From: a virus | Length of the DNA: 23,704 nucleotides | Direction: 5' to 3' (one strand) | Virus record (IMG/VR): IMGVR_UViG_3300031767_000003 | Span: 1-23,704 of that record | Shown: positions 11,955 through 21,979 of the stretch, in pieces | Layout of the letters: every line of letters begins with the position of its first letter | Numbering within the stretch: the first letter of the stretch is position 1 | The notes under the pieces: model-generated | Seen by the model: only the letters and a program-made list of their open reading frames with translations | Told to the model about the DNA's origin: nothing | Database searches by the model: none | Made by a program: the position numbers and the translations under genes

Positions 11955-12857
11955 ATGCCGCGTCAACTCTTTCCGTACATCGGCGGCAAATACACCATCG
12001 CGCCGGAGATCAACCGGCGGTTCGGAGAGATCACCACGCGCATCGATGCGTTTACCGGATCGTCGAGTTGGATCCTCGCGTCACCGCCGACCAAATACGA
12101 GATCGTCAACGATCTGGACGGCTACGTTGTCAACTATCTGCGCGCGGTCAAGTACGCGCCGGACGAGGTTGCGCGGCATCTCGACTTCCCGCGCGCCGAA
12201 CTGGAGTTGATCGCGTATCACCACTACACTAAAGACAGATTGCCGGAACTCGTCGCCCGGCTGGGCGGCGATCCGGACTACTACGATCCGGTTCTCGCGG
12301 CGCGGTGGGCGTATGTGATGGCGTATAAGTTAGACCCGTCGCTCACCAAGCCCGGCGGGTGGTCGGTGCGCGACGGGCGGCTCATCTACGAACGCGGGGA
12401 AGGGCGAATACGCGGCAGTCTGACATCCACACCTCGGCTCCTCGCCCGACTCGTCAAAGAACGCCGCGTTTCCGAGTACGTCGCCGCTCTTTCTGAGCGA
12501 CTGCGCAACGTTCAGGTGTGGTGGAACGACTTCGAGGTTGTCGCCGCGAAAGCGACCCGCCCCGAACTCGGCGTTGCCGGTATTCTGCTCGACCCGCCCT
12601 ACCCGCGCCACCTGCGTGACTTCGACTACGACAGCGACGCCGCGGATGTCTGGCAGCGCGCGGCGCGTTGGGCAGTCGCCAACGGCGACAATCCCCGACT
12701 GCGCATCGCGGTCTGCGGCTACAACGACGCAGAAAGCGACGCGCTGTTCCCGTCTGGGTGGCGGCGGTTTTTCTGGAAACGCAGCGGTATCGGACAGCAT
12801 AAGGATCGAGAGTGCATTTGGTTTAGTCCGCACTGCGGGGGAGGCAGTGATGATTGA
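11955..12857 (+). CDS. Dam-like DNA N6-adenine methyltransferase (D12 class)
   Basis: This 300-residue protein has the D12/Dam order of motifs: FPYIGGK at 6-12 (first SAM-binding block), DAFTGSSSWIL at 31-41 in the place of the usual FxGxG motif, YEIVNDLDGYVVNYLRAVK at 48-66 and the catalytic DPPY at 213-216. It would transfer a methyl group from SAM to adenine N6, perhaps at GATC, a site common in this genome by eye. Its recognition site cannot be read from sequence. It sits between tail and lysis genes in the late operon and its end overlaps the endolysin start, so it is probably made late. Possible roles are protection from host restriction or marking of DNA for packaging. The unusual TGSSSW block may shift specificity. 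Confidence 0.88.
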   Translation: MPRQLFPYIGGKYTIAPEINRRFGEITTRIDAFTGSSSWILASPPTKYEIVNDLDGYVVNYLRAVKYAPDEVARHLDFPRAELELIAYHHYTKDRLPELVARLGGDPDYYDPVLAARWAYVMAYKLDPSLTKPGGWSVRDGRLIYERGEGRIRGSLTSTPRLLARLVKERRVSEYVAALSERLRNVQVWWNDFEVVAAKATRPELGVAGILLDPPYPRHLRDFDYDSDAADVWQRAARWAVANGDNPRLRIAVCGYNDAESDALFPSGWRRFFWKRSGIGQHKDRECIWFSPHCGGGSDD

Positions 12858-13648: not shown

Positions 13649-13806
13649 AACTCGATATACTGCTGCCGGTCAGCGCGTTCGCACTCGCGTTCGTTCACCC
13701 CGACGCGGCGCAAGTCGCGGCGACGGCGGTGTTGGTGCTGCTGGTGACGCGCATCGAGCGAGGGCGACGGGCGAGGAAAAAGAGAAGCGCCCCGGTTGCT
13801 CCCTGA
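13645..13806 (+). CDS. Very small membrane protein, possible second lysis protein
   Basis: This is a 53-residue protein from ATG 13645 in an ATGA overlap with the holin candidate and behind GGAGGCGG. It has one or two short hydrophobic segments (ILLPVSAFALAFV at 5-17 and VAATAVLVLLV at 24-34) followed by a strongly basic tail (RIERGRRARKKR). It may be a holin partner or antiholin. A long upstream extension to 13621 would put its start inside the holin gene. Its last codons overlap a terminator for the convergent - strand gene. Assignment is by size, topology and location only. Confidence 0.5.
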   Translation: MKLDILLPVSAFALAFVHPDAAQVAATAVLVLLVTRIERGRRARKKRSAPVAP

Positions 13807-13811
13807 GGCGC
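13775..13811 (-). terminator. Intrinsic terminator of the 13826-14179 gene
   Basis: Read on the - strand, GCGCCTC pairs with GGGGCGC around an 11-nt loop (13787-13811) and is followed by TTCTCTTTTTCC. One pair is U-G in the - strand RNA but C-A in the + strand RNA, so the hairpin favours - strand transcription. It overlaps the 3' end of the small membrane gene. Confidence 0.7.
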
Positions 13812-13825
13812 GGTCGGCGAGTGGT

Positions 13826-14179
13826 TTAGAAACGCTGAATGTTGAGGATGAGGTAGTTGAGCGCCTCATCCGGCGTGCTGCCCTCACCCCGCCGAAATAC
13901 TTTTTGTCCTTCACGCTCAACGAAAACGTCGGCAAACCAAAAACCCGCGTTGGTTTGCCAGAGTTCGATGTTGATGATATTCGGGTTGTCGAGAAGCGTC
14001 GTAACCAACGCACCGCACAGCAACTGATACTGTTCGGGGATGTGCGTATCGACTAGTACTTTGTGATCGATAAATCGCAGAAAGAGTTTCTCCGGCAAGG
14101 GATTGATTGGGTTGTGCGATATGACGAACACCGCGCCGGGGGTGTCGTCGTAGCGGCTAATCTTGATTGATTTGAGCAT
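13826..14179 (-). CDS. Unknown protein, paralogue A of a tandem pair
   Basis: This 117-residue soluble protein lies on the opposite strand to all neighbours except its paralogue. It is clearly related to the gene at 14308-14658 over its C-terminal 70 residues (HIPEQYQ, GALVTTLL, IELWQ, RRGEGSTPDEALNYL). The end motif GEGxTPxEAL recalls the beta-beta-alpha end of HicB-like and other small folds, but that is a weak resemblance and no function is claimed. It has its own strong promoter and an AAAGGAG ribosome site before ATG 14179. Strand, small size and promoter suggest an early gene such as a host-takeover, defence-evasion or regulatory factor. No catalytic or DNA-binding motif was recognised. 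Confidence 0.78.
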   Translation of the reverse strand: MLKSIKISRYDDTPGAVFVISHNPINPLPEKLFLRFIDHKVLVDTHIPEQYQLLCGALVTTLLDNPNIINIELWQTNAGFWFADVFVEREGQKVFRRGEGSTPDEALNYLILNIQRF

Positions 14180-14216
14180 AAGCGGTCTCCTTTCTGGATA
14201 AAACGGTTACACCGAC

Positions 14217-14245
14217 AGTATACCCCGCTTTCGCGGGGTTGTCAA
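14217..14245 (-). promoter_or_regulatory. Sigma70-type promoter with palindromic spacer, for the 13826-14179 gene
   Basis: On the - strand TTGACA (14240-14245), 17-bp spacer, TATACT (14217-14222): a near-consensus promoter starting about 30 nt before the ATG. The spacer is part of a perfect 7-bp palindrome ACCCCGC/GCGGGGT with a 4-nt centre (14222-14239), which could be a repressor operator. Confidence 0.8.
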
Positions 14246-14250
14246 GAGGG

Positions 14251-14284
14251 AAAAGAAAAGCGCCCCGCATTTGGTGCGGAGCGC
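14251..14284 (-). terminator. Intrinsic terminator of the 14308-14658 gene
   Basis: On the - strand a 10-bp stem (GCGCTCCGCA with TGCGGGGCGC, one U-G pair) and 5-nt loop are followed by TTTTCTTTT. It lies only a few bases ahead of the next promoter's -35 box, insulating the two paralogous genes from each other. The stem base and T-run resemble the terminator at 13775-13811, as if gene and terminator were duplicated together. Confidence 0.85.
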
Positions 14285-14307
14285 AGAAGGCGGGGAGGAA
14301 GCGCGGA

Positions 14308-14658
14308 CTAGGAACGCTGGACATCAACAACGAGATTGTTGAGCGCCTCAACCGGCGTCTTTCCCTCACCGCGACACAGGCGATGCCCGCGCGCGGTCTC
14401 TACCGTCGCGTCGGCAAGCCATTCGCCGCTGTCGGGCTGCCAAACTTCGATGTCCAGAACCGTCGGTTCTTTCAACAGCAGCGTCGTCAGCGCCCCCGAC
14501 TGAATCTGATACTCGTCCGGGATGTGCGTCCCGACGAGCATCATATAGTGAAGCGTGCGCTGTAGGTACTTATTCGTCGCCGGCGTAGTCTCACACAGCG
14601 AGTCAATGTGCACCAACTCTTTACCTTCCAGTCGTTTGATTTTGGTTGAAGTGATCAT
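14308..14658 (-). CDS. Unknown protein, paralogue B of a tandem pair
   Basis: This is a 116-residue soluble protein paralogous to the gene downstream of it on the same strand: shared blocks are THIPDEYQ, SGALTTLLL, IEVWQPDSGEWLAD and CRGEGKTPVEALNNL, while the first 45 residues differ. A strong ribosome site (AAGGAGG) precedes ATG 14658. It is monocistronic, with its own promoter (14699-14727) and terminator (14251-14284). Divergent N-termini with conserved C-terminal domains suggest different partners with a common core. I do not recognise the family; an early regulatory or anti-host role is inference from position beside the replication promoter. Confidence 0.78.
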   Translation of the reverse strand: MITSTKIKRLEGKELVHIDSLCETTPATNKYLQRTLHYMMLVGTHIPDEYQIQSGALTTLLLKEPTVLDIEVWQPDSGEWLADATVETARGHRLCRGEGKTPVEALNNLVVDVQRS

Positions 14659-14698
14659 CAGTAGCCTCCTTCTTATAATAGATAATTGTCACACCCAT

Positions 14699-14727
14699 AC
14701 TCTACCACACACCACGCCGTTTGTCAA
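14699..14727 (-). promoter_or_regulatory. Sigma70-type promoter for the 14308-14658 gene
   Basis: On the - strand TTGACA (14722-14727), 17-bp spacer, TAGAGT (14699-14704). The predicted start point is about 34 nt ahead of ATG 14658. It is divergent from the replication promoter, with 36 bp between the two -35 boxes. Confidence 0.72.
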
Positions 14728-14763: not shown

Positions 14764-14792
14764 TTGACAGACCGGAACTTGTGTGCTAGGCT
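14764..14792 (+). promoter_or_regulatory. Sigma70-type promoter of the replication operon
   Basis: TTGACA (14764-14769), 17-bp spacer, TAGGCT (14787-14792). The -10 box is weak but the -35 and spacing match the two divergent promoters nearby. The leader to ATG 14840 is about 40 nt and contains an inverted repeat at 14799-14815. Confidence 0.65.
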
Positions 14793-14839: not shown

Positions 14840-17740
14840 ATGTCCATCTCATTTACAGATTACCTCGACTTGCTCTACGGTGACGATACCGCCGCCTATA
14901 CGACCGTCAGCGTCAAGCGCGCGGACGGTCGCTTTGACTGCAAGACGTTCAACCTCTCGCAGCGCGCCGAGATCGTCAAGCATATCGAGCGTCATCTCGC
15001 ATACGACATCTACATCAAACGCGCTTCCCAGTTTATAAAGCCGGATCGCGGCTCATCGGGAACCGCCGAAATCGCCTACTACCAGCGCGTCATCACCGCC
15101 GACATCGACATCCGTTCCGACGCGCACGCGAAGGATACGCTCCCCGCGTCAAAAGACGACGCACTCCGGCTGCTGGAGGAGAGCGGCTTGCCGGAACCGA
15201 CGCTCGTCGTCCACACCGGCAACGGTCTGATGCCGATGTGGGTTCTGCGCGAACCGCAGTGGGTCAACTACGTCGCCCCGGTCCAGGCGGGCGTCGAGGC
15301 GCAACTGCGCATCACCGCCGCGCGCTGCGGCTGGACGTTGGACAACACCGGCGACGCCGCGCGGTCGATTCGCGTGATCGGATCGTACAACTGGAAGCAG
15401 CGACCGCAGAAGAAGCCCGTCACCATCATCCGCAACAGCGACCGCTACTACGACCTCGCCGATTTCGCCGCGTTCGCCCGCCGTCCGCTCCTCACGCCCC
15501 GGCGCGTCGGCGGCGCAGCGACGCGCGAGACAATCGAGACGTTGCTGCGCTACATCCCCGGCGACGGTCTGGAGTACAATATGTGGCTGGCGGCGGTCTG
15601 GGCTATCCAGTCGGCGTTGTCGGAAGACGTTGCGACTGAAATCCTGGATCGCTGGACATACGACTGGGAGAAGCACCGGAAGCCCGATCACGTCGAGAGC
15701 AACATCGGGGTGTTGATCAACCTCGCCCGCGAACACGGGTTCGAAGGAACGATCCCCGGCGTACGCGGCGGATACGTCGTCTCGCCGGAGCTGCCCGACG
15801 CGATGAAGATCAATCAGCGTTATCTGGATATCGAGATTGACCCGGACGACGATTATCCGAATATCGTCGTCATCAAGTCGCCCAAGGGAACCGGAAAGAC
15901 GCAGTGGCTGGCAGAAGCCGCGAAGTGCTACCCGCGCGTGTTGTCGGTGGGGCACCGAGTCTCGCTGGTGCGCCAGAGCGCGGCGCGGCTGAATCTTACC
16001 CCGTATTACGAGGACGGGCGCTGGATTACCAACGCACCGCGCGTCGCCACCACCATCCACAGTCTCGACAAAATCGAAACAGACGCGCCCTACGATCTCG
16101 TGATCATCGACGAGATCGAGCAGGTGCTGAAAGCAATCGTCAACGACCGCAACCTGAAAAGCCGGAAAGTCAGTGCAGTCGGGGCGCTGATGGAGCATCT
16201 CCGCAAGGCGCGGCTGATCATTCTCGCCGACGCCGATGTTGGCGAAGCGACGCTGACGTTCATTCAGTCTGCATTTCCTAACCCGAAGATAGCCTACGTC
16301 GAAAATGAGTATGTCCACCGTATGATAGATCATCTCGTACTGCTGCCGTCGCCGGAAGACGTACTCCAGAAGTCGCTGGAGTGGTACGAAACCAATGCGT
16401 GGAAAATCGCGCTTGCGTGCAACACGCGCGCCGACGCCGACCGCGCCGAACTGTTCTATCGTCAGGTTTTGCCGGACGCGCGGATATTGAAGATTACGGC
16501 GGAAACGAGCGAGAACAACAACGAGACGCTTGAGCGCATCAACGATATTCTGAAAGACGTTGATGTATTCATTTATTCGCCGTCCGTCGGCACCGGCGTC
16601 TCAATTGACATAGAGGGATTTGCGTTGTTCGGCATCGCCAGAAACGGCGTCGGCGTCGGCGACGTAGACGATTTCCGCCAGCAGTTGGGGCGCATCCGCA
16701 ACCCGCTTGAGCGCGAGATCAACGTGTACGTTGAGACCAAGCGAATGAACGAACCGACATCGCCGGAGGCGTACCGCGATCTGGCGAAACTACGCGAACT
16801 GGAAGATGACTTCCGCATTTCACGCGCGAACGGCGCGCCGGAACCGGCGACGGAGTGGGATCGCGTGTATCTCGATCTGTACTGCGTTGTCAAAGCGAAG
16901 ACCGCAGCGCAGAAGAACGACTTCTTCAACAATTTCGTCGGCGCGTATGCGGCGGAAGGCGTTGAGGTCTGGGACGACCGCGACAAGCCGAACCTGCCGA
17001 CCGACCGCCGCCGCGAACTGGCGAAAGCGCTGCGCGAACAGCGCGAGGCGAAGGAACGCGAGCGCGCCGAACGGATCGCCAACGCGCCCGCGCCTGATGA
17101 CGCGAAGACGGCGGAAGAGAAGCGCGACGCAGAACGGAAGGTCGAATTGGAGGAGAGGTACGGCATCGACGTTGACGCCGATCTGGTGCTCGACGACGAG
17201 CGCGGCGCATACGGCGCGGCGCAGCGCTTCGCGGCGGTGGAAGATGCAGAGGTTGCAAAAGCGCTGGATGAAATAGAGGCGACGCGGCGGTTCAGTGCAG
17301 ATCGCAACCGATTCGCGCTGTTTGCGATTTGGTTCAATATGCTGCTTGCCGCGCTGAAATTGCGGATTGAAGAAGGTGCAGAAATTGCAATCACCGAAGA
17401 GTTTGTCGATCTCGTCGAGCGCAACCGGTTGTTGATCCACGCCTCGCTGGGGATCAGAGTGCGCAACGACTTCCGACAGAAGCCGATGTCGTTTATCAGC
17501 GCACTGTTCCAGAGGATCGGCGTCGGCATCGAAGGGAAACAGCAGCGGGTAGACGGCGGGAAGCGGGTGCGCGTCTACCGGCTGGTCAACATCGAGCGGG
17601 CGCGGCTACGCACCACCGGCATCCGCAAGCGACATCAAGAGCGAACCGCGCCGGTGTATGAGTTTCTCGGAACGCCTGTCACAACACATCATATAAATAA
17701 AAGAAAGTCCGGCGTTGTGACGGCTGCTGCTGTACACTAG
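14840..17740 (+). CDS. Primase-helicase: AEP-type primase fused to SF2 origin-binding-like helicase
   Basis: This is a 966-residue protein behind GGAGAAAGGAG. Residues about 80-210 look like an archaeo-eukaryotic-type primase: ITADIDIRSD (metal-binding Asp88 and Asp90), VVHTGNGLMPMWVL and GDAARSIRVIGSYNWK. Residues 230-300 resemble a PriCT-type linker domain (YNMWLAAVWAIQSAL). Residues 340-640 are an SF2 helicase: Walker A SPKGTGKT (347-354), IIDEIEQ (Asp424, Glu425), SPSVGTGVSID and QQLGRIRNP, closest in pattern to herpes UL9-type origin-binding proteins. Residues 690-790 are a charged, probable coiled coil; the C-terminal domain is unknown. It would open the origin and prime DNA synthesis. 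Its final codons (residues 947-961) coincide with the fourth 44-bp element. Confidence 0.82.
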   Translation: MSISFTDYLDLLYGDDTAAYTTVSVKRADGRFDCKTFNLSQRAEIVKHIERHLAYDIYIKRASQFIKPDRGSSGTAEIAYYQRVITADIDIRSDAHAKDTLPASKDDALRLLEESGLPEPTLVVHTGNGLMPMWVLREPQWVNYVAPVQAGVEAQLRITAARCGWTLDNTGDAARSIRVIGSYNWKQRPQKKPVTIIRNSDRYYDLADFAAFARRPLLTPRRVGGAATRETIETLLRYIPGDGLEYNMWLAAVWAIQSALSEDVATEILDRWTYDWEKHRKPDHVESNIGVLINLAREHGFEGTIPGVRGGYVVSPELPDAMKINQRYLDIEIDPDDDYPNIVVIKSPKGTGKTQWLAEAAKCYPRVLSVGHRVSLVRQSAARLNLTPYYEDGRWITNAPRVATTIHSLDKIETDAPYDLVIIDEIEQVLKAIVNDRNLKSRKVSAVGALMEHLRKARLIILADADVGEATLTFIQSAFPNPKIAYVENEYVHRMIDHLVLLPSPEDVLQKSLEWYETNAWKIALACNTRADADRAELFYRQVLPDARILKITAETSENNNETLERINDILKDVDVFIYSPSVGTGVSIDIEGFALFGIARNGVGVGDVDDFRQQLGRIRNPLEREINVYVETKRMNEPTSPEAYRDLAKLRELEDDFRISRANGAPEPATEWDRVYLDLYCVVKAKTAAQKNDFFNNFVGAYAAEGVEVWDDRDKPNLPTDRRRELAKALREQREAKERERAERIANAPAPDDAKTAEEKRDAERKVELEERYGIDVDADLVLDDERGAYGAAQRFAAVEDAEVAKALDEIEATRRFSADRNRFALFAIWFNMLLAALKLRIEEGAEIAITEEFVDLVERNRLLIHASLGIRVRNDFRQKPMSFISALFQRIGVGIEGKQQRVDGGKRVRVYRLVNIERARLRTTGIRKRHQERTAPVYEFLGTPVTTHHINKRKSGVVTAAAVH
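17678..17721 (+). repeat. 44-bp palindromic element, copy 4
   Basis: The left arm GTCACAACAC is intact and the right arm is GCGTTGTGAC (one change); length is again 44 bp and the core is ATATAAATAAAAGAAAG. It lies within the last codons of the primase-helicase gene and ends 28 bp before the next ATG, similar to copy 3. The inner bases do not pair here, so the arms and the core, rather than a long stem, are what is shared by all four copies. Confidence 0.85.
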
Positions 17741-18049: not shown

Positions 18050-18496
18050 ATGAAATCGTTTGACGAACAAGCCGCATACGGACTTCCCTACGAACGCCTG
18101 ATCGCGCAGACGGCGGCGCTGCTGCTCTACCCGCATCGTCTCGATCTGACGCTGGTGCGGCTGGACGCCTACGCGCCGCTGGATTTTCTGATCGTTGACG
18201 ACGCGCGACCGATCGCCGCGCTGGAGGTCAAGCGTCGGTCGATTCGATCCGATACGTACCCGACGACGATTATTCCGCAATCCGTCGTCGACGCGGCAAA
18301 GCGCTTGACAATCCCCGTCTATGCTGCTATTCTCTTCACCGACGGACTGGCAGTATTCGATGTGCTGCGCACGCCCTCAAGCGTTCGCTGGCTGCGCACG
18401 CGGCGCGGGGCGCTGCGGAAGCATCGAGAATACGACATCTCAGAAAGGTTGGTGAAAGTTGAGGAAGTACATCAACGACAGAGAAGAAGCGCTTGA
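18050..18496 (+). CDS. PD-(D/E)XK-type nuclease-like protein
   Basis: This is a 148-residue protein. Asp45 in PLDFLIVDD and Glu59-Val-Lys61 in IAALEVKRRS form the D...ExK active-site pattern of PD-(D/E)XK nucleases, on the expected strand-turn-strand. YPTTIIPQSVVDAAKRLTIPVYAAILF follows as the next helix-strand. Size and basic C-terminus (HQRQRRSA) suit a DNA junction or end-processing enzyme. Its substrate cannot be told. Its end overlaps the polymerase start by 38 bases, and a promoter for the polymerase lies within it. Confidence 0.68.
   Translation: MKSFDEQAAYGLPYERLIAQTAALLLYPHRLDLTLVRLDAYAPLDFLIVDDARPIAALEVKRRSIRSDTYPTTIIPQSVVDAAKRLTIPVYAAILFTDGLAVFDVLRTPSSVRWLRTRRGALRKHREYDISERLVKVEEVHQRQRRSA
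18305..18333 (+). promoter_or_regulatory. Predicted internal promoter ahead of the DNA polymerase
   Basis: TTGACA (18305-18310), 17-bp spacer, TATTCT (18328-18333) inside the nuclease gene, about 125 nt before the polymerase start. It is the same architecture as the other promoters in the window, but being inside a coding region makes chance more likely. Confidence 0.45.
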
Positions 18497-20763: not shown

Positions 20764-21456
20764 ATGAACACCTTTTTCGGCGTCCAAATCCAGAAGAAAC
20801 AACCGCTCGTTGACGCGATCCGCGGCGTCGTTGCCGCGAAGCGTCGCCCGGTCGCGGCGCGGGATCGGGTGTACGCGAGCGAGATTTCCGCGTGCGACCG
20901 GCGTATCACCTTCGGGCTGCTGGGCTGCGAACCGGACGCGCCGCGCTCAGATAGCCCGTCGGCGCTGCTGGGCGACGCGATCCACGCGCATTTAGAAGCA
21001 CTGTTGAAGGAAGCGTTTCCGGGGCGTGTGGAAACAGAGGTTCGAGTGATGAGCGGCGCGATCTCCGGGCGGATCGACGCGCTGCTGGTCGAAGACGACA
21101 ACACGCTGACGGTGATCGACATCAAAACCGTCAGCGCGAAAGAGTGGGCGACGCGATCGAAGATGAACGAGTACGTTGACCAGATCAGCGTCTACGCCGC
21201 GCTGGTCGAGGCGCAGACCGGCGTGGTGCTGTTGGTCAACCGCGACACCGGCGAGATGGAGGAATTACGCTTCGAGATCGACCGCGCCCGCGCTGAAGCG
21301 TTGCTGTATAAGGCGCTGCGACTTCAGTCGCTGGCGCTGGAGGGGTATATTGCAGAAGCGACGGCGTGGGGAACGGAAGAGTGCCGGTGGTGTCCGTTCC
21401 GAAAACGGTGTGAGCCGATTGACAAAACGGGTGTTCTGGTGTATACTGCGGACTAA
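20764..21456 (+). CDS. Cas4/RecB-like nuclease with predicted 4Fe-4S cluster
   Basis: This is a 230-residue protein from ATG 20764 behind GGAGG; a start at 20722 would lie inside the polymerase gene. It has all RecB-family landmarks in order: Cys44 (SACDRR), His74 (GDAIHAH), Asp105 (GRIDALL), Asp119-Ile-Lys121 (VIDIKT, D in place of the more usual E), QxxxY (Gln140, Tyr144) and CRWCPFRKRC (Cys207, 210, 216). The four cysteines are spaced as in Cas4/AddB iron-sulfur nucleases. There are no cas genes nearby, so a recombination or DNA-end-processing role is more likely than CRISPR adaptation. It sits between polymerase and SSB-like genes. Confidence 0.88.
   Translation: MNTFFGVQIQKKQPLVDAIRGVVAAKRRPVAARDRVYASEISACDRRITFGLLGCEPDAPRSDSPSALLGDAIHAHLEALLKEAFPGRVETEVRVMSGAISGRIDALLVEDDNTLTVIDIKTVSAKEWATRSKMNEYVDQISVYAALVEAQTGVVLLVNRDTGEMEELRFEIDRARAEALLYKALRLQSLALEGYIAEATAWGTEECRWCPFRKRCEPIDKTGVLVYTAD
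21419..21447 (+). promoter_or_regulatory. Near-consensus sigma70-type promoter for the SSB-like gene
   Basis: TTGACA (21419-21424), 17-bp spacer, TATACT (21442-21447), within the last codons of the Cas4-like gene, about 55 nt before ATG 21503. The leader includes GGAAGGAGAGG as ribosome site. This would raise SSB-like expression above that of the upstream genes. Confidence 0.75.
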
Positions 21457-21502: not shown

Positions 21503-21979
21503 ATGTTCAAGGAACTCATCCACAACGGAAGCCGAAGCGAACGACCGGAACTGAACGGCGCGTATATCGGGCGGTTTCTGGGCGTCAAAGAGCGTCAGCG
21601 TCCGACGTTTGAGACGAGGCTTAGCCCAGAACCGACCTACGAAGAAGTGTTCGTGTTTGAGTTCGAGGTTGTAGACCCAGAACTCGACGCGCCGCTCCGC
21701 GTGTCGCGATGGGTGCGGAAACCGCCGCGTCTCGATCACCCGGCGAAAAACGGGAAGGTCTCGAACCTCTACAAGACGCTGGCAGCGTTGTACGGCGTGT
21801 CGGTGATGTCAGACGAACAACTCCAGAATGCGGAGGAATTCGTCCAGAACGCCGTTGGGCGCGAGTATCAACTCACCCTGGAGACGAAACCCTCCGGGTG
21901 GGTTGAGATTGTGCACATCGCCCCCGTCCGTAAGACGCGCAGCCGGAAGAAAGAAGAAGATGAAGAAGTCCCGTTCTGA
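21503..21979 (+). CDS. Single-stranded DNA-binding-like protein (SSB analogue)
   Basis: This is a 158-residue protein. The first 145 residues alternate strands and loops compatible with an OB-fold (YIGRFLGVKERQRPTF, YEEVFVFEFEVVDPELDAPLRVSRW, YQLTLETKPSGWVEIVHIAP). The C-terminus is a charged linker ending KEEDEEVPF, very like the DDDIPF acidic tip by which bacterial SSB recruits replication partners. SSB binds and protects single strands during replication and recombination. It has no strong overall similarity to E. coli SSB visible by eye. A dedicated strong promoter and its place among polymerase and nuclease genes agree with an abundant replication protein. Confidence 0.72.
   Translation: MFKELIHNGSRSERPELNGAYIGRFLGVKERQRPTFETRLSPEPTYEEVFVFEFEVVDPELDAPLRVSRWVRKPPRLDHPAKNGKVSNLYKTLAALYGVSVMSDEQLQNAEEFVQNAVGREYQLTLETKPSGWVEIVHIAPVRKTRSRKKEEDEEVPF

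Follow-up and report, generated by a model that had tools for sequence, protein, structure and literature searches.

In the host-takeover module of SPO1, the early genes, most of which are small, have strong promoters and ribosome-binding sites (PMC6873191). In cluster K mycobacteriophages, the SAS/ESAS-linked genes are likewise small and numerous; they have a common upstream control element, which in some cases includes an inverted repeat, and this element is found at genes of different families (PMC3203893). Morons have their own promoter and terminator, lie antisense to late genes and are variably present (PMC7067206). The gene cassettes analysed here have the trait of host-takeover and early accessory genes that small genes are clustered in a compact region, each behind a strong consensus promoter and a ribosome-binding site, as in SPO1. 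They differ from SPO1, where the genes are mostly in operons, come from mixed families and were tested for toxicity, in that each unit contains one gene, nearly all genes belong to one paralogous family and all are known from sequence alone. Here, too, a control element is common to genes of different families, but the ESAS repeats have arms of 17 bp and lie upstream of the start site, whereas in the cassettes a palindrome of 18 bp is placed between the -35 and -10 boxes and the repeated unit consists of terminator plus promoter.

The window, that is the whole stretch of DNA analysed, is a 23,704-base virus record coding for a portal protein, an HK97-type capsid protein, a tape-measure protein, a D12 methyltransferase, a primase-helicase, a family A polymerase and a PD-(D/E)XK exonuclease. 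All of these genes are located on the plus strand. The two cassette genes are encoded on the minus strand, with the end of the late operon on one side and, on the other, the divergent promoter (14764..14792, plus strand; promoter scan and comparison with class P1, see below) and gene (14840-17740, plus strand) of the primase-helicase. A first-pass annotation had placed them next to a replication switch, which is not supported; the genes of the window and its relatives that were tested against the libraries included no integrase and no repressor, and the neighbour is the primase-helicase promoter. The window has few consensus promoters, and these are located before the cassettes and the replication genes: TTGACA-N16-18-TANNNT occurs five times (0.08 expected), and two cassette promoters were found in the region (0.6 expected). 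On the plus strand, two further TTGACA-N17 promoters (18305-18333 and 21419-21447) lie in the body or at the tail end of the genes that directly precede the polymerase gene and the ORF at 21503. A small ORF (18050-18496) has a match to the phage PD-(D/E)XK endonuclease family PF24579 that stays below the cut-off (E 6.6e-4). Cyanobacterial CyRepA1 plasmid replication proteins and RepA of phage phiHAP-1 share about 25% identity with the primase-helicase; for the cyanobacterial proteins this similarity is too distant for a host assignment, which was rejected. Neither the cassette protein nor the portal protein had a match in GenBank phage records.

Counted from the primase side, the first cassette (A') starts with a promoter of class P1 at 14727-14699 (TTGACA-17-TAGAGT with a TG before the -10 box), which was found by promoter scan and belongs to the class that precedes the first cassette in most relatives. 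Gene A' (14308..14658, 116 amino acids, AAGGAGG upstream) is followed by a strong hairpin with T run (14260..14284, -19.6 kcal/mol, z -4.4), after which TTTTCTTTTC leads into the next promoter. This promoter, also found by the scan, belongs to cassette C and is of class P2 (14245-14217, TTGACA-17-TATACT); between its -35 and -10 boxes lies the 18-bp palindrome ACCCCGCGAAAGCGGGGT (14222..14239, seven of nine pairs symmetric), a probable regulator site. Gene C (13826-14179) codes for 117 amino acids. Both genes are preceded by a purine-rich ribosome-binding site, and their products are homologous, with 41% identity over 116 amino acids (E 6e-31). The pair of related minus-strand genes of about 117 residues, each with its TTGACA-N17 promoter, is thus as first annotated, and so is the sequence common to both terminators (AGCGCCCCG). 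The claim of a hairpin-T terminator for each gene holds fully for A'; the cassette C hairpin (13787..13811, -16.5 kcal/mol, z -1.1) is weaker and is followed by an interrupted T run (TTCTCTTTTT). It was missed in the initial terminator scan and recovered by later folding, and relatives carry stronger terminator versions at this position. To call the C-terminal halves conserved and the N-terminal halves divergent had been an overstatement: 21 of 57 N-terminal and 27 of 59 C-terminal positions are identical in the window pair, and among 86 pairs of different types in the whole family the means are 34% and 37%. A duplication with change of partner, which had been proposed on this basis, depends on a contrast that is small.

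Relatives were gathered via the primase-helicase, which yielded 16 loci on other IMG/VR contigs with 67-93% identity; part of these had been recovered by earlier scans with the cassette proteins. Altogether, 22 intact cassette genes were identified in 11 phages including the window, always at the same genomic place and with one to three per phage, on contigs that may all be fragments. Each cassette consists of a promoter, a ribosome-binding site, a gene of 102-140 codons and a terminator. The genes fall into six types, A to F, which are combined differently between phages. In order from the primase side, the window has A'-C and its relatives have A-C (L028), A-D (L029), E-A-D (L035, and L030 with D cut by the contig end), A-B-C (L031), A-B-D (L036), A-B (L041), a remnant of A followed by B (L033 and L040) and F followed by the contig cut (L034). 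Types C and D never occur together in these arrays and each takes the last slot. At first sight types D (128-131 amino acids) and E (102 amino acids) are dissimilar to A, B and C, but profile comparison relates them to these with 95% and 94% probability, respectively. An ORF at L045:7173-7499 that looked like a distant member by eye was rejected (hhalign P 0.085).

The first 420 bases upstream of the primase-helicase contain deletion remnants in five contigs. In L032, L039 and L043 promoter and ribosome-binding site are joined to approximately the C-terminal half of a gene, and in L033 and L040 about a dozen codons of the lost type A gene are joined to its terminator. In the primase tree, L028 is the fully supported sister of the window, and close relatives elsewhere on the tree differ in their cassettes, for instance L031 (A-B-C) and L034 (F first). 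Cassettes are swapped, gained and lost between close relatives. The duplicated cassette of the first annotation is indeed a paralogous pair, but one that samples two genes of a larger family whose members are swapped. Genes of the same type mostly give dN/dS values of 0.12-0.45 (0.65 in one near-identical pair), so that they are kept for their proteins. In one relative (L011:9371-9994), only the first two dozen codons of the D12 methyltransferase gene (11955-12857 in the window) seem to remain, fused to the ORF that follows.

We read the locus as a modular array of early accessory genes, the acidic products of which would bind host proteins for host takeover or counter-defence, and give this reading an even chance of being correct. 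Early expression and binding of host proteins are suggested by the strength and class of the promoters, the neighbourhood, the small size and acidity of the products (net acidic in 21 of 22) and the turnover. The individual control, the position by the primase-helicase promoter and the turnover under purifying selection fit host-directed accessory genes, as which the pair had been annotated, and to this extent that proposal stands. Selection is purifying and not diversifying; an arms race need not show the latter, but the case would be more convincing if it did.

The same anatomy could also belong to morons of a prophage type, which their own promoters would express during a dormant state and which would protect the host cell, for instance by superinfection exclusion or by defence against other phages. 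Like morons (PMC7067206), the cassettes have their own promoter and terminator, are antisense to late genes and are accessory, with a presence that varies among relatives. In addition, relatives carry an FtsK-like gene, which together with the distant likeness of the primase to plasmid CyRepA1 proteins would make a plasmid-like dormant state possible. However, no sign of lysogeny was found here, the genes tested include neither integrase nor repressor, and several related copies in a row set the cassettes apart from the described morons. Moreover, searches of species genomes with the family and the primase profiles revealed no related prophage; these scans of cellular genomes, in which neither profile found a relative, rely on a short peptide pattern or two and can detect close relatives only. 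We consider the moron reading rather improbable, but the strongest of the alternatives.

The cassette proteins have no family match in Pfam, PHROG, NCBIfam or PADLOC. A hit to DUF6566 has an E-value of 0.034 and stays below its cut-off, none of the 19 family members tested matches a PADLOC-DB defence profile at E <= 1, and no known anti-defence or takeover protein matches them. The profile search thus bears out the annotation of a protein family of unknown function, which is absent from all libraries searched. The AlphaFold2 model of the type C protein (pLDDT 94.7, pTM 0.87) shows the fold βββα-βββα, for which no PDB or BFVD structure matched at E <= 1e-3. We predict with confidence, on the basis of the models, that the cassette proteins are a new family of two βββα units. 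The first half of type D contains GTWFADVYV, and the second half of type C has the nearly equal GFWFADVFV (shuffle p 0.0005). This likeness suggests that an internal duplication took place long ago, although within type C the halves do not resemble each other in this way (p 0.78).

Modelled alone, the C-terminal half folds as αβββα (pLDDT 94.4), and in Foldseek it is most like protein Y/HPF, archaeal YcaO, dsRBDs and Rv1738, with a best E-value of 8e-3. The best matches are chiefly entries of protein Y/HPF, which has a βαβββα fold (probability 1.00; TM, by query length, 0.59-0.67). The putative HPF Rv1738 (PMC9386245) fits at 1.8 Å over 60 columns. With sequences read from the K-12 record, E. 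coli RaiA came first in hhalign among 49 ORFs from four E. coli stretches (P 4.4e-4) in the structural register β5-β6-α2, which is a ranking within a small set, two of the stretches having been picked because they hold RaiA and HPF. It is conceivable from these models that the C-terminal half acts like protein Y/HPF and binds the ribosomes of the host, so that translation in the infected cell is slowed or redirected, but we consider this quite unlikely. No Foldseek E-value reaches 1e-3, the HPF alignment gives a probability of only 12-20%, and three of four single HPF sequences are at background in hhalign. The Ribosomal_S30AE profile (PF02482) has no match in the window DNA, in a search whose control matched in 11 genomes, nor in 19 cassette proteins at E <= 5, and a PDB sequence search yielded no HPF. 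Further, the cassette proteins have an extra N-terminal βββ, they are acidic, which counts against an HPF-like action, and the lysine/arginine-rich C-terminal helix of HPF (K-L-x-R-Q-L-x-K) is not kept in the cassette helix EALNYLILNIQRF or in that of relatives. The likeness to protein Y/HPF is a lead, and membership in that family is not supported. Were the second unit nevertheless a remote domain of this type, the swappable, operator-controlled sets might reprogram or protect host ribosomes in infected cells, with paralogues for each ribosome state or host variant, a scenario with little chance of being right. For the dsRBD, the αβββα shape is similar, but a likeness by sequence is not supported: PF00035 gives no match, TPxEA replaces the KKxAK motif at helix 2, and hhalign with RNase III gave P 0.23.

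A hairpin with T run follows 21 of the 22 family genes but none of 1000 random stretches in a simple script test, the single cassette missed being cassette C of the window. The T run of internal terminators continues directly into the -35 box of the next promoter (GGGGCGCTTTTCTTTTCCCTC-TTGACAACC), and linkers that precede different gene types are 68% identical, compared to 48% for the genes themselves. P1 promoters are mostly located before the first gene, end in GTGTGGTAnnnT and have no palindrome. P2 promoters are mostly internal and their spacer is filled by the 18-bp palindrome ACCGCGCnnnnGCGCGGT, with a mean symmetry of 6.4 of nine pairs over 15 spacers (2.7 in shuffles). The exact P2 pattern was found in seven of 2.9 million viral contigs, all from this phage group. 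Spacer covariation is no better than in shuffles, so that a spacer hairpin maintained by compensatory change was rejected; the palindrome is kept by sequence, which makes a protein-binding palindrome the better reading. It is probably where a regulator binds to limit or time expression. In one relative (G001), P1 promoters also precede genes of a second family of small paralogues, unrelated to the cassette family, and the promoter of the primase-helicase resembles P1 in its -10 region, which suggests that P1 promoters may be a common early class. In contig IMGVR_UViG_3300027279_000007 (L045:5971-9122), the second family of small paralogues has five copies on both strands that begin with 'IWSG', are 29-35% identical to the first copy and have no Pfam match; several of these genes have P1-type promoters like that of the first cassette.

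With a palindrome that covers the core of the internal promoters and is unique to this phage group, the paralogues could themselves be transcription regulators, which would bind the palindromes of their cognate promoters and control when the array is expressed. This has a slim prospect only: the P1 promoters of the same family have no palindrome, and the proteins match no DNA-binding family or fold. Their acidity and predicted fold make autoregulation unlikely. That the proteins are HicB-like antitoxins neutralising host HicA-type toxins is scarcely probable: their βββα unit with the G-x-TP-x-EA motif at the helix start resembles HicB, but hhalign with E. coli HicB gave P 0.45, Pfam scans detected no HicB family and the best Foldseek matches listed include no HicB entry.

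In the modular array of early accessory genes that we prefer as a reading, each cassette is, judged by its sequence, a transcription unit of its own in this tailed-phage group. The alike terminator-promoter linkers might offer sites for cassette exchange; the pattern is observed, and recombination there would be the route. The proteins would be made early, bind host proteins and redirect host physiology or block a defence, with paralogues possibly serving different targets or target variants, and a regulator at the palindrome of the internal promoters would limit or time their expression. None of the family libraries searched contains these proteins, and no entry of the structure libraries confidently matches their fold as a whole. 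If this reading is true, these phages carry a library of host-directed proteins that is assembled cassette by cassette under uniform control elements. The swapping, with C and D in the same slot and remnants of lost cassettes, would then be a natural experiment in which cassette content could be matched to host strain and defences once the hosts are known.
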